Part shown: positions 15,139 through 22,005 of the stretch, piece by piece
How positions within the stretch are numbered: the stretch's first letter is position 1
Layout: each line of letters opens with the position of its first letter
From: Comamonadaceae bacterium
GTDB taxonomy: Bacteria; Pseudomonadota; Gammaproteobacteria; Burkholderiales; Burkholderiaceae_C
Length of the DNA: 64,000 bases
Assembly: GCA_947448735.1 (NCBI GenBank)
Contig: CANFOS010000002.1
Coordinates: 124,001-188,000, forward strand
Direction of reading: 5' to 3'
The notes under the pieces: model-generated
Told to the model about the DNA's origin: nothing
The model's input: the letters and a program-made list of their open reading frames with translations, nothing else
Database searches by the model: none
Program-made: the position numbers and the translations under genes

Positions 15139-16698
15139 ATGAGCACAGTCATCCCGATCATTCCGATGCCCACGGCGCCGATCAGCACGGCCCTTGAGGG
15201 CGACGGCATGGGCTGCCACAGCGGCGGTGAGGCCATGCTGGCAGCGGCCAAGTCGGCAGGCAAGTCTGAAATTCTCGAGCAATACGCCAAGGATTATCCG
15301 AAAAACCCCAAAGCGGGCCCGCATGACCAGCCCCAAAGCATGTGCCCTGCGTTTGGTTCTTTGCGCGTGGGTTTGCGCATGCGCCGTACCGCAACCATTT
15401 TGTCGGGCTCCGCCTGCTGCGTGTATGGACTGACCTTCACCTCTCATTTTTATGGTGCCAAGCGCAGCGTCGGCTATGTGCCGTTCAACTCCGAGTCGCT
15501 GGTGACAGGCAAGCTGTTTGAAGACATCCGCGAAGCGGTGTTTCAGCAGGCTGACCCCGCTTTGTACGACTCGATCGTGATCATCAATTTGTGCGTGCCT
15601 ACCGCCAGCGGTGTGCCTTTGCAAATATTGCCGAAAGAAATCAACGGCGTCCGCATCATTGGTATTGACGTCCCAGGATTTGGGGTGCCAACCCATGCTG
15701 AAGCCAAAGATGTGCTGGCTGGGGCGATGCTGAAATACGCGCGTACCGAGGCTTTGGCTGGACCAGTCCAAGCGCCGCGCAACGGCAAGTCTGACAAGCC
15801 GACCATCACGTTGCTGGGTGAAATGTTTCCTGCAGACCCGGTCATCATCGGCATGATGCTCGAACCCATGGGTTTGTCGGCAGGCCCCTCTGTACCAACG
15901 CGTGAATGGCGCGAGCTGTATGCCGCACTCGACTGCGCAGCGGTTGCCGCTATTCACCCTTTTTACACCGCCAGCGTTCGTGAGTTTGATGCGGCAGGTC
16001 GTGCCATTGTGGGCTCTGCACCGGTGGGTTATGAGGGTACGGAGGCTTGGCTGCAAGCGATTGGCCAAGCCGCCAATATTGCACAAAGCGACATTGACAT
16101 CGCCAAAAATAAATTCTTGCCTGCGATCAAAGGGGTGCTTTCGAAAACGCCCATCAAGGGCCGTATCACGCTGAGTGGCTACGAAGGCTCTGAGCTTTTG
16201 GTCGGTAGATTGCTGATCGAAAGCGGCGCTGACTTGCGCTATGTTGGCACGGCCTGCCCACGCACGGCATGGAACGAAGCCGATGTTCAGTGGTTGGAAA
16301 GCAAAGGCGTGATGGTGCAGTTCCGCGCATCGCTGGAGCAAGACTTGGCCGCAGTGCACGAATTCAAGCCTGACCTGGCCATTGGCACCACGCCTGTAGT
16401 TCAAGCAGCCAAGGAGTTAACAATTCCGTCGCTGTATTTCACCAATCTGATTTCTGCCCGTCCCTTGATGGGCCCGGCAGGCGCTGGTTCCTTGGCGACT
16501 GTGGTGAATTCGGCCATTGGCAACAAAGCACGCTTTGAGGAAATGAAAGATTTCTTCGGCTCAACGGGTACGGGGCATGCGACAGGGGTGTGGGAGGCCG
16601 CACAAGGGATTCCTCAAGACCGGCCAGAGTTCAAGGCTGAGCAACGCAGACTTGCCGTGAAGATGGCGAAAAAGCGCAAAGCAGAGGAAATGATCTGA
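15139..16698 (+). CDS. bchY: Chlorophyllide reductase subunit Y
   Basis: [48 protein letters not shown]. Confidence 0.96.
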
Positions 16699-18176
16699 TG
16701 TTGGTCCTAGATCACGATCGCGCTGGCGGCTATTGGGGCGCGGTGTATGTGTTTACCGCCATCAAAGGTTTGCAGGTGGTCATTGACGGGCCAGTGGGCT
16801 GCGAAAACCTGCCCGTCACATCGGTGCTGCATTACACCGATGCCTTGCCCCCGCATGAGTTGCCGATTGTGGTGACGGGTTTGGCTGAAGAGCAGTTGGG
16901 CCGTGAAGGCACCGAAGGCTCCATGAGGCGAGCTCATGCTGCGCTTGATCCCGACTTGCCTTCTGTTGTGGTGACAGGCTCGATCGCCGAAATGATCGGC
17001 GGTGGCGTGACTCCGGCAGGTACCAACATCCAGCGGTTCTTACCTCGAACAATCGATGAGGACCAGTGGCAGTGCGCCAACCGCGCGATGTTCTGGCTCT
17101 GGTCAGAATACGGCCTCAAGGAGGTGCCTGCGCGCAAGCCCGCCTCTGAGCGGGCCCCAGGTGAAAAGCCCCGAGTCAACATCATTGGTCCGAGCTACGG
17201 CACGTTCAACTGCCCCAGCGACTTGGCAGAAATCCGCCGCTTGGTCCAAGGCATTGGCGCTGAGATCAATATGGTGTTTCCACTGGGCAGTCACTTGGCC
17301 GACGTCTCGCGCCTGGTGGAGGCCAACGTGAACATCTGCATGTACCGCGAGTTTGGCCGCATGCTGTGCGAGGCGCTGGAGCGACCCTACCTGCAGGCGC
17401 CGATTGGTCTGCACAGCACGACCAAGTTCTTACGCAAGCTGGGCGAGCTGCTCGGACTGGATCCTGAGCCCTTCATCGAACGCGAAAAGCACACCACGAT
17501 CAAACCCATTTGGGACTTGTGGCGCTCTGTGACGCAAGATTTTTTTGGCACCGCCAGCTTTGCGGTCGTGGCCAATGAAACCTATACACGAGGTATTCGC
17601 CACTTTCTTGAAGAAGAGATGGGTTTGCCCTGCAGCTTTGCCGTCTCGCGCTGCCCTGGTGCAAAAACCGACAACGCCGAAGTGCGCCGGCTGACCACCA
17701 CAAAAACGCCTTTGGTGATGTATGGCAGCTACAACGAGCGCATGTACCTGGCCGAATGCGGTGGTGGCGGCATGATGAAAGCGACCTTCATCCCTGCCTC
17801 ATTTCCGCTGCCGATTATTCGCCGCCACACCGGCACGCCATTTATGGGCTATGCAGGCGCAACTTATGTGATTCAAGAGTTTTGCAATGCGCTGTTTGAT
17901 GCCTTGTTTCATATCTTGCCGCTGGGCACTGAGTTGGACAAGATTGACTCGACACCAAGCCGCGTCAACGCAGACAAGCCCATCAGCTGGAGCGCCGAGG
18001 CGCATGCGCTGCTTGAAGAATTGATTGAGGCCGAGCCGGTACTGGTTCGCATTTCAGCCGCCAAACAAATGCGTGATCGCGCTGAGCGCGATGCCCGCCA
18101 ATCCGGCAAATCAAGTGTGGAGCTTGACCGTCTTTCAGAATTGTTTGGGCATTTAAAAGCGGGGGCGGCTGCATGA
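16698..18176 (+). CDS. bchZ: Chlorophyllide reductase subunit Z
   Basis: [59 protein letters not shown]. Confidence 0.96.
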
Positions 18177-18321: not shown

Positions 18322-18465
18322 ATGAATCAAAGTACTAACCCGACAGGGTTGTCTGACTCAGAGTGCCAGGAATTTCACAGCTACTACATCCAAGGTTATG
18401 TGATGTGGGGTGTGGGCGCGATGATCGCCCACAGCTTGGTGTGGATCTGGCGTCCCTGGTTCTAA
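18322..18465 (+). CDS. pufB: Light-harvesting LH1 beta polypeptide
   Basis: MNQSTNPTGLSDSECQEFHSYYIQGYVMWGVGAMIAHSLVWIWRPWF; two conserved His and terminal RPW. Confidence 0.92.
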   Translation: MNQSTNPTGLSDSECQEFHSYYIQGYVMWGVGAMIAHSLVWIWRPWF

Positions 18466-18487
18466 GAACCAACTCACGGAGATAAAT

Positions 18488-18712
18488 ATGGCTTACCTAC
18501 ATGCTCAGCACGCTGACAGCGACGTTCAAGCTCCCCTCAAGGAGTTTCGCTACCTGTACGTGGTGCTTTTCTGCGTCTTTTTATTGCTTGCAATGATGGG
18601 CCAGATGTTGTTCATGGATTGGCGTAACTGGCTGCCAGGGGCAGAGGGAACCAGACCCATGTTGGGCAGCGTGAAGTCGGCTGTTTACACCGTGATTTCC
18701 CAACTCAGCTAA
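18488..18712 (+). CDS. 74-aa single-TM protein between pufB and pufA (PufQ-like or novel LH1/RC accessory)
   Basis: MAYLHAQHADSDVQAPLKEFRYLYVVLFCVFLLLAMMGQMLFMDWRNWLPGAEGTRPMLGSVKSAVYTVISQLS; GGAGATAAAT RBS just upstream; one TM. Confidence 0.75.
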   Translation: MAYLHAQHADSDVQAPLKEFRYLYVVLFCVFLLLAMMGQMLFMDWRNWLPGAEGTRPMLGSVKSAVYTVISQLS

Positions 18713-18728
18713 CACTAAAGGAAATATT

Positions 18729-18920
18729 ATGTGGCGTATGTGGCGTATGGTCGATCCCCGCAAGGCGATCATCCTGACAGGCTTAATGATAGCCTTCATT
18801 TCGACGAGCATTCATCTGATTCAAGTCAGTGGTGATCGTTACAACATCAACACGTGGCATCCTGACACCGTCAAGGCCGCGAAAGCCGCCAACAACGCGG
18901 CGATGCCTCCGTCGAAGTAA
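18729..18920 (+). CDS. pufA: Light-harvesting LH1 alpha polypeptide
   Basis: MWRMWRMVDPRKAIILTGLMIAFISTSIHLIQVSGDRYN; conserved W..WR..DP and His ligand. Confidence 0.9.
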   Translation: MWRMWRMVDPRKAIILTGLMIAFISTSIHLIQVSGDRYNINTWHPDTVKAAKAANNAAMPPSK

Positions 18921-18984
18921 CGGTAGCAAATTTTGTTACCGATGTGGTGAGCGAAGTCAGGCTCTCGTGGCCTGCTTCGCACAC
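18921..18984 (+). promoter_or_regulatory. pufA-pufL intercistronic hairpins (probable mRNA stabilizers)
   Basis: CGGTAGCAAA/TTTGTTACCG right after pufA stop, then GTGaGCGAAGtCAGG...CCTGCTTCGCaCAC. Confidence 0.6.
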
Positions 18985-19057
18985 CCTACCCAAGAATTAG
19001 TTTTAACAGTTTTTAATCCGAATCACGCACACTAGCGGATCGGGCAGAGGAGCCAAC

Positions 19058-19885
19058 ATGGCCATGTTGAGTTTTGAAAGAAAGTACCGCGTACGCGGCG
19101 GCACCCTGATTGGGGGTGACTTGTTCGACTTTTGGGTCGGCCCGTTTTACGTTGGCTTTTTCGGAATTACCACCGCCTTTTTTGCGGTCCTTGGCACAGC
19201 CATGATCATGTGGGGTGCCGCCATGGGCCCCACCTGGAATCCTTGGCAAATCAACATCGCGCCGCCAGACATTTCAAATGGACTGAAGATGGCTCCGATG
19301 ATGGCTGGAGGCCTTTGGCAAATCATCACCGTTTGCGCGCTGGGTGCCTTTGTCTCCTGGGCACTTCGCGAGGTCGAAATTTGTCGCAAACTTGGAATGG
19401 GCTTGCATGTCCCGATAGCATTCGGCTTTGCCATCTTTGCGTACTTCACCTTGCAGGTTATCCGACCGGTGCTGATGGGTTCCTGGGGTCATGCTTTTCC
19501 TTACGGCATTTACAGCCACCTGGACTGGGTCAGTAACACTGGCTACCAGTACCTGCACTTTCATTACAACCCGGCGCACATGATTGCGGCGACACTGTTT
19601 TTTGCGACCACCTTGTCATTGTCTTTGCATGGCGCGCTGGTCTTGTCGGCGACCAATCCGGGCCATGGGCAAGCTGTCAAAACGCCTGAGCATGAAGACA
19701 CTTTTTTTCGCGACGTGATCGGCTATTCGGTGGGCACGCTGGGTATTCACCGTCTGGGGTTGTTCCTGGCGCTGGCAGCAGTCTGGTTTTCTGCCCTTTG
19801 CATTGTCATCAGCGGGCCATTTTGGACGCGCGGCTGGCCCGAATGGTGGGGCTGGTGGCTGAACATGCCCATCTGGGGCCATTGA
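19058..19885 (+). CDS. pufL: Photosynthetic reaction center L subunit
   Basis: [36 protein letters not shown]..., [22 protein letters not shown]. Confidence 0.98.
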
Positions 19886-19918
19886 AGAGGCACAAGGAAA
19901 GAACAAGAGGTAATAAAC

Positions 19919-20893
19919 ATGGCTGAATATCAAAATCTTTTTACCACCGTGCAGCCCGTCGGGCCTGCATCCGCAGGGGTTCCGCTGCCGCCCGGGGACT
20001 CCGAGCGCATCGGCACACCATTTTTTCTGCACCTGGCTGGTCGTTTGGGAAACGCCCAAATTGGCCCCGTCTATCTAGGGTGGCTGGGCTTGGCGTCGCT
20101 GCTATTTGGCACGCTGGCCTTCAACATCATTGGCTTCAATATGTTGGCCCAGGTGGACTGGAATCCACTGCAAATGATTCGCCAGCTATTTTGGTTGGCG
20201 CTTGACCCGCCAGCGCCCAAATACGGTCTGAGTATTGCGCCACTCAATGACGGGGGTTGGTGGAATATTGCGGGCTTATTTCTGACGGTATCCCTGATTT
20301 TGTGGTGGGCACGCATGTACCGCCGCGCGCGTCAGCTCGGCTTGGGCACGCATGTGGCTTGGGCGTTTGCTGCTGCCATCTGGCTTTATTTGGTGGTTGG
20401 ATTTTTCCGCCCCGTGCTGATGGGCAGCTGGTCTGAATCCGTGCCCCTCGGTATCTTTCCGCACCTGGACTGGACCGCCGCCTTGTCCTTGCGTTATGGC
20501 AATCTTTTCTACAACCCTTTCCATGCGCTGTCGATTGTGTTTTTGTATGGCTCTGTGTTGCTGTTTGCCATGCACGGCGCCACCATTTTGGCAGTGGGCC
20601 GTTACGGTGGTGAGCGTGAGATTGAGCAGATCATTGACCGCGGTACCGCATCGGAGCGCGCCGGGCTGTTTTGGCGCTGGACCATGGGCTTCAACGCATC
20701 AATGGAGTCTATTCACCGCTGGGCCTGGTGGTTTGCAGTGCTTTGCCCGCTGGTCGGTGGTATTGGTATCTTGCTGACTGGCACCGTCGTGGACAACTGG
20801 TATCTGTGGTCTGTCAAGCACCATGTCGTACCCGGCTATCCGGCTGTGTATGTGCCCACCATTGACCCAGCTTTGCTTGGAGTAAAACCATGA
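19919..20893 (+). CDS. pufM: Photosynthetic reaction center M subunit
   Basis: [17 protein letters not shown]..., [31 protein letters not shown]. Confidence 0.98.
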
Positions 20894-22005
20894 TCATGCG
20901 TACTACCATCAAACTGCTTCTGGCAAGCACTGCAGCGTTGCTGCTGGCAGCTTGTGAAAAGCCGCCGATTGCGGTGTCTCAAACCGGTTTTCGGGGCACG
21001 GGCATGGAGCAGGTGTACAACCCGCGCATCTTGGCAACCCAGGCCTCACTCAACAAGGCGCCTGAGGTGTCGGCCGCCGTGGAAGATGTGCCTGGGGGTC
21101 CTAAAGCCGGGGCGATTTACCAAAACGTCAAGGTGCTGGGTGATCTGAGTGTGGGGGAGTTTGCCCGCACCATGAGTGCCATCACCGAATGGGTAGCGCC
21201 GCAGCAGGGTTGCAATTACTGCCACGTGGCCGGTAACTTTGCCGACGACAGTGTGTACACCAAAGTGGTGGCGCGCAAGATGTTGCAGATGACGCAAAAA
21301 GTGAACTCGGGATGGAAGCAGCACGTGGCCGAAACTGGCGTGACCTGCTACACCTGCCACCGGGGCAACAACATTCCCAAAGAAGTCTGGTTTGCACCTC
21401 AGCCTCAAAAATCTGCCGGTGGCAGCATGGGGAATGATTTCGGCCAAAACCGGGCTGCCAAATCGGTGGGCCTGTCGTCTTTGCCGTATGACCCTTTCAC
21501 GCCATACTTCCTGGACAGCAAGCCCATTCGCGTTAATGGCAAAGAGGCTTTGGCCATGACGGGAGCCGCTGCCAACCGCAGTTCCATCAAGCAGGCTGAA
21601 CACACGTATGGCACGATGATCCACTGGTCTGAGTCGCTGGGCGTGAATTGCACGTATTGCCACAACACGCAATCTTTTTCATCCTGGGGTGCCAACGCAA
21701 CACCGCAACGCGCGACTGCCTGGTACGGCATTCGGATGGCGCGTGAGTTGAACAACGAGTTCATGGTGCCGCTGACCAGCGTGTTCCCGGCCAATCGGCT
21801 CGGGCCAACAGGTGACGTTGCCAAAGCCAATTGCGCCACTTGCCACCAAGGCGCGTACAAGCCGCTCTACGGTGCGGCGATGGCCAAGCATTACCCAGGC
21901 ATGCAAGCGCCGGTCAAAGCACCTGATGCCGCTGCCGCAGCACCTGTTGCTGACGCTGGGCAAGCGGTGCCGGTTGCTGGTAAGGTTGAGGTTTCAGCCA
22001 AGTAA
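20890..22005 (+). CDS. pufC: Reaction center tetraheme cytochrome c subunit (lipoprotein)
   Basis: Lipobox LLLAAC; four CxxCH motifs (CNYCH, CYTCH, CTYCH, CATCH). Confidence 0.97.

Follow-up and report, generated by a model that had tools for sequence, protein, structure and literature searches.

The puf operon in the window, by which we mean the whole 64,000-nucleotide stretch of Comamonadaceae DNA analysed here, raises the question of what kind of protein is encoded by the 74-aa open reading frame that separates pufB from pufA, the genes for LH1 beta and LH1 alpha. We refer to this ORF and its product as X. The initial annotation had left two answers side by side: a PufQ-like protein out of its usual place, and an LH1/RC accessory polypeptide not yet described. 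Each is considered below against the distribution of X, its family relationships and the residues it has kept.

A conserved gene between pufB and pufA

The ORF, with its own ribosome-binding site, lies exactly where it had been placed by the initial annotation. Upstream of pufB are bchX, bchY and bchZ, and downstream of pufA are pufL, pufM, pufC and crtA. The features needed for the argument are the following:

16698..18176, + strand: bchZ, the upstream neighbour of pufB
18322..18465, + strand: pufB, LH1 beta, short form of 47 aa (NF040862, 66.7 bits against a cut-off of 61; 1.2e-18)
18478..18482, + strand: Shine-Dalgarno GGAGA of X (from the sequence)
18488..18712, + strand: X, 74-aa single-TM protein, judged from its ORF sequence and profile comparison to be a diverged LH1-beta paralogue
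18602..18604, + strand: codon of Gln39, at the position of the BChl-ligating His of LH1 beta (PDB profile alignment)
18620..18646, + strand: WRNWLPGAE motif, residues 45-53, holding Trp+6 and Trp+9 of beta and then the start of the long-beta extension (alignment of 126 X proteins)
18665..18703, + strand: predicted C-terminal helix, residues 60-72, motif GSVKSAVYTVIS (conservation; AlphaFold2, at low confidence)
18729..18920, + strand: pufA, LH1 alpha (gene order; PF00556 and NF040861 just under their cut-offs)
18921..18986, + strand: two stem-loops between pufA and pufL (MFE z-score -4.5 against shuffles, for the stretch 18915-19060)
19058..22005, + strand: pufL, pufM and pufC (PF00124, PF00124 and PF02276)

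Nearly all phototrophic relatives have an X orthologue at the corresponding place (bchXYZ-pufB-X-pufA-pufLMC). Within the genus of the window, 17 of 87 genomes carry X, and these are the same 17 that carry pufL. Our set of 126 X proteins includes Rubrivivax, Limnohabitans and Piscinibacter, and the order bchZ-pufB-X-pufA-pufL was found in every X locus inspected, as far as the contigs extend, among them Limnohabitans, Rhodoferax MAGs, Piscinibacter, Rubrivivax gelatinosus (L106) and R. benzoatilyticus (L114). Here the pufB stop is followed after 22 nt by the X start, and the X stop after 16 nt by the pufA ATG; across the X loci these gaps range over 17-60 nt and 10-21 nt, respectively, and GGAGA is matched at four or more of its five positions upstream of X in 108 of 124 loci. 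Pairwise dN/dS values of 0.09-0.19 indicate purifying selection. Given the coincidence with pufL in the same 17 of 87 genomes, the fixed gene order and the purifying selection, X is not a chance ORF but a real, conserved gene; a spurious ORF is ruled out by the shared X/pufL genomes, the invariant residues and the dN/dS values, and the survey of puf operons in Rhodoferax and Limnohabitans relatives that the initial annotation had proposed as a check leads to the same answer.

Proteins in this position have been seen before. The part of a 2025 report that deals with the R. gelatinosus puf operon (PMC12817894, citing Nagashima 1994) describes two ORFs of unknown function, ORF1 and ORF2, with ORF2 upstream of pufA; an alignment of ORF2 with PufA2 led its authors to regard the two as unrelated (PMC12817894). 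In Roseateles depolymerans, ORF74 (RD2015_RS05155) lies between pufB (RS05150) and pufA (RS05160), is co-transcribed with both in a major 1-kb pufB-ORF74-pufA transcript, and is among the three most changed transcripts (PMC10037100). By position and length X corresponds to ORF2 and ORF74, and for ORF2 the Rubrivivax orthologues point to it as well. In the open-licence PMC literature we found no report naming the family of X, nor did we find there a statement of its distribution, its lost-ligand pattern or a link between beta and PufQ. Of the two earlier suggestions the accessory polypeptide is the better supported, though it is not wholly undescribed.

Relationship to LH1 beta

Taken alone, the X protein of the window has no Pfam or NCBIfam match and reaches the curated cut-off of neither PF00556 nor NF040862. 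Other members of the family do show weak LH1-beta matches, with 25 of 51 matching the NCBIfam LH1-beta model at E values up to 1 (best 1.8e-7). A search of the PDB with the X profile, up to E 10, returned beta chains of LH1 and LH2 only, the best being 8z81_B at 9e-12, and single members from Rubrivivax (1.9e-10) and Piscinibacter (9.9e-13) likewise matched beta chains. In profile-profile comparisons X scored 97 against the long PufB of certain Burkholderiaceae and 87 against gammaproteobacterial PufB (E values against these long beta profiles, 4.5e-20 to 5.6e-18), 64 against the gammaproteobacterial proteins encoded in the pufQ position, 22 against PufA and 21 against classical PufQ. Decoys for the comparison with gammaproteobacterial PufB, made by shuffling profile columns in blocks of 8 so that the hydropathy profile was roughly kept, reached a mean of 18 and a maximum of 35 (z 14.7). 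Kinship with LH1 alpha was rejected: the score against PufA is about as low as other pairs give once their profiles are shuffled, which agrees with the published comparison of ORF2 and PufA2. In an unrooted tree of 80 sequences and 74 columns, X, beta and PufQ form separate clades (ultrafast bootstrap 94, 98 and 100), and by both score and tree distance X is nearer to beta than to gammaproteobacterial PufQ. X is, on these profile relationships, a diverged LH1-beta paralogue, a kinship that the initial annotation had not proposed.

The alignment to beta places Gln39 at the ligand position and confirms the earlier remark that the TM segment of X contains no His. In PufB this position reads AH in 125 of 125 sequences; in the 126 X proteins it is Q in 112, T in 5, L in 4, H in 3, E in 1 and A in 1. 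The three members with His (L103, L104 and L130), two of them from Curvibacter MAGs, are possibly reversions from Gln. Other residues of the BChl pocket are kept, Ala-4 (A35) in 125, Trp+6 (W45) in all 126 and Trp+9 (W48) in 123 of the 126 proteins. The strongest conservation is found in the C-terminal extension, in WxxWLPGAE and GVKxAVYTxxS; within the former, P50 and G51 are invariant and A52 and E53 are each present in 125 of 126. AlphaFold2 predicts a TM helix over residues 15-47 (block mean pLDDT of 91 and 87 for residues 21-40), and Foldseek with this model gave no matches, as expected of a single helix. The charge bias of X is too small for assignment of a topology.

PufB is short, 47-50 aa, in all X loci. 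Seven Burkholderiaceae genomes (L182-L188) have a puf operon that lacks X as well as an adjacent pufQ, and in these PufB is about 76 aa long, with an extension that resembles that of X. We infer a duplication of pufB followed by a division of labour, in which PufB would have kept the pigment and X the extension. Since the tree keeps three clades and could not be rooted, the derivation from beta rests on similarity together with gene position. The exchange of extension for X does not hold everywhere, as a short PufB without X is found in some gammaproteobacteria.

A proposed beta-like subunit of the RC-LH1 ring

The explanation we prefer, to which we give about an even chance, is that X belongs to RC-LH1 as a non-antenna, beta-like accessory or structural subunit and caps or interrupts the ring. 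A long pufB would have been duplicated, one copy becoming the short, BChl-binding PufB and the other X, which would have retained the beta-like membrane helix, the interfacial tryptophans and the C-terminal extension and lost the ligand His. X would share its mRNA segment with pufB and pufA, and most likely a single copy or a few would join RC-LH1, placed within the outer ring or against it, the C-terminal helix facing the periplasm. With its BChl site weak or absent, such a beta-like subunit would interrupt or cap the ring, and a ring so altered could set an opening for quinone exchange. The existence and conservation of X, its gene order, its homology to beta and the loss of the His are observed here, and transcription along with LH1 has been demonstrated in Roseateles; we infer the topology of X, its presence in the complex, its copy number and its role.

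The two stem-loops after pufA are of the kind that terminates the abundant LH1 mRNA segment, and because they follow pufA, and because the abundant Roseateles transcript is pufB-ORF74-pufA, X is probably made together with LH1 and not as a rare regulator. It is this co-production, combined with the homology to beta and the lost ligand, that favours a beta-like structural subunit. The evolutionary distances of X also track those of PufA and PufB beyond what is accounted for by PufL (partial r 0.33 and 0.31, respectively; Mantel p 0.001); the effect is modest, and for PufA it may be left over from phylogeny. No PDB entry contains X, and none of the RC-LH1 structures there is close to this clade (Rubrivivax PufL has no close match in the PDB). 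Glutamine is able to ligate the Mg of chlorophyll, and X may therefore still bind pigment.

In the window PufA carries Ile, not Trp, at +11 from the ligand His, and Ser, not Ala, at -4; an alpha chain without Trp+11 would be expected to give a blue-shifted LH1. Over 122 loci the residue at +11 covaries with the subtype of X, being Ile or Leu with X of the '..YT-VI-S' type and Trp with X of the '..YT-FM/LM-S' type. The C-terminus of PufA, AAMP (18900-18917), fits the [A/S]-[P/A]-[L/M/I]-P type of motif, for which contact with the cytochrome subunit has been described in, among others, Rhodopila (PMC9640540).

The relationship to PufQ

Of the alternatives, the one that survives best, which we nonetheless consider unlikely, is that X is the betaproteobacterial counterpart of PufQ, relocated from upstream of pufB to the interval between pufB and pufA, where it would bind a pigment or precursor transiently, or ferrochelatase, and so steer tetrapyrrole flow and BChl delivery during LH1 assembly. 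In Rhodobacter sphaeroides, PufQ binds ferrochelatase and carotenoid and directs porphyrin to BChl, and a longer ferrochelatase N-terminus has been reported to accompany it (PMC5725709). Direct membership in the classical family was rejected: the X protein of the window has no match to Pfam PufQ (PF05398), none of 51 X members is matched by PufQ models, and against the profile of classical, alphaproteobacterial (Rhodobacter-type) PufQ the family scores no better than shuffled profiles (z 1.9) and lacks the ITPxIF motif. Nor does PF05398 find anything above its cut-off in the whole genome.

The case for a counterpart runs instead through gammaproteobacterial proteins encoded in the pufQ position, the gap between bchZ and pufB (L147, L149, L150, L172-L174 and L176-L181; three weak PufQ matches, L161-L163, were left out as they have no puf neighbours). 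These match X (E 1e-12, z 12.6; one member directly, by tblastn at 7e-13) and also classical PufQ (5.8e-7, z 5.0), and in comparison with gammaproteobacterial PufB they give z 7.7, so that their profile connects with classical PufQ as well as with LH1 beta. The three that were compared with Pfam PufQ (L147, L149 and L150) gave no match, and the one in L147 keeps AH at the ligand position of beta. The earlier idea of a displaced PufQ-like protein therefore fails for classical PufQ and finds some support in this gammaproteobacterial match. The best argument for the PufQ counterpart is mutual exclusivity: in the loci examined, genomes with a gene in the pufQ position have no X, and the two never occur together. 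The gap between bchZ and pufB is 145 bp in the window and 101-191 bp in 119 X loci, leaving no room for a pufQ upstream of pufB, and in none of the X loci does X take the pufQ position; it always follows pufB. The equal size and single-TM plan of the two proteins, and a weak Gln ligand that would suit a carrier, point the same way.

Against the PufQ counterpart, apart from the failure to match the classical family, stands the closer proximity of X to beta than to gammaproteobacterial PufQ. Ferrochelatase shows no N-terminal extension, its open frames having the usual 368 codons with and without X, which is a weak check as only frame lengths were compared. Moreover, no replacement for PufQ is needed, given that Burkholderiaceae loci exist with neither X nor an adjacent pufQ and that pufQ is absent in other phototrophs (PMC12654162).

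As the profile links run through X and the gammaproteobacterial proteins, beta, X and PufQ look like one superfamily, which they may form with X nearest to beta. On that basis we offer, as a tentative proposal that is somewhat more doubtful than not, that antenna beta genes repeatedly became non-antenna helpers, giving rise both to X, which would stay in the core complex as a ring-shaping RC-LH1 subunit of a new class and is present in nearly all the phototrophic Burkholderiales examined, and to the tetrapyrrole-flux regulator PufQ.

Other roles for X

It is improbable that X is a pigment-binding minor beta, occupying several ring positions, ligating BChl via Gln39 or otherwise and tuning absorption. 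The conserved Ala-4, Trp+6 and Trp+9, the Gln (or, in three members, His) at the ligand site and the way in which the X subtype follows the PufA residue at +11 would all suit such a protein; however, 10 of the 126 members have Thr, Leu or Ala as the ligand-site residue while retaining the family motifs elsewhere, the N-terminal His of beta (EFH) is lost, and conservation peaks outside the pocket, in the C-terminal extension. Small hydrophobic proteins commonly act as assembly factors, and the intergenic distances on both sides of X are tight and near-constant, yet a role solely as an assembly helper, or as a setter of pufB and pufA output through translational spacing, absent from the finished complex, is the least probable, since purifying selection on the protein and its invariant residues exclude a pure RNA spacer and the change of the Roseateles transcript is nearer to that of pufB and pufA than to that of the bch genes (PMC10037100 Table 2).

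Implications and comparison with known systems

A beta-like accessory subunit gives a family and a testable role to a Rubrivivax puf ORF that was reported in 1994 and is still listed as unknown, and makes X worth looking for in every cryo-EM study of betaproteobacterial RC-LH1. If X opens or caps the ring, quinone exchange in betaproteobacteria would proceed via a beta without a pigment site, and not via PufX or protein-W. The chain of profile matches leading from beta by way of X and the gammaproteobacterial proteins to PufQ suggests, too, where PufQ came from: it would be an antenna-derived helix that acts on ferrochelatase.

ORF2 and ORF74 share the place of X between pufB and pufA and are listed merely as ORFs of unknown function, with no family given. 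PufQ (PF05398) resembles X in its length of about 74 aa, its single TM segment, its place in the puf operon and its mutually exclusive occurrence in the loci seen, and is linked to it via the gammaproteobacterial proteins; it differs in giving no direct profile match, in its C-terminal ITPxIF motif and in lying upstream, not downstream, of pufB. PufX, protein-W, protein-U and LH1 gamma are small non-antenna TM subunits that shape, open or tune the RC-LH1 ring. None of the four has a sequence match to X in the PDB chain search up to E 10, and identity with any of them was rejected, the PDB matches being beta chains only. X may work likewise all the same. The closest known relative is the long LH1 beta (PufB; 8z81_B, 9m8m_B and 7xxf_B of Rhodopila globiformis), homologous to X across the TM helix and the C-terminal extension, with which X shares Ala-4, Trp+6, Trp+9, the WRxW[LI]PGAEG motif and a puf-operon location adjoining pufB and pufA. 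Unlike the long beta, X has its ligand His replaced, mostly by Gln, has lost the N-terminal EFH His, strongly conserves the AVYT[VF][MI]S C-terminal helix, and coexists with a normal PufB.
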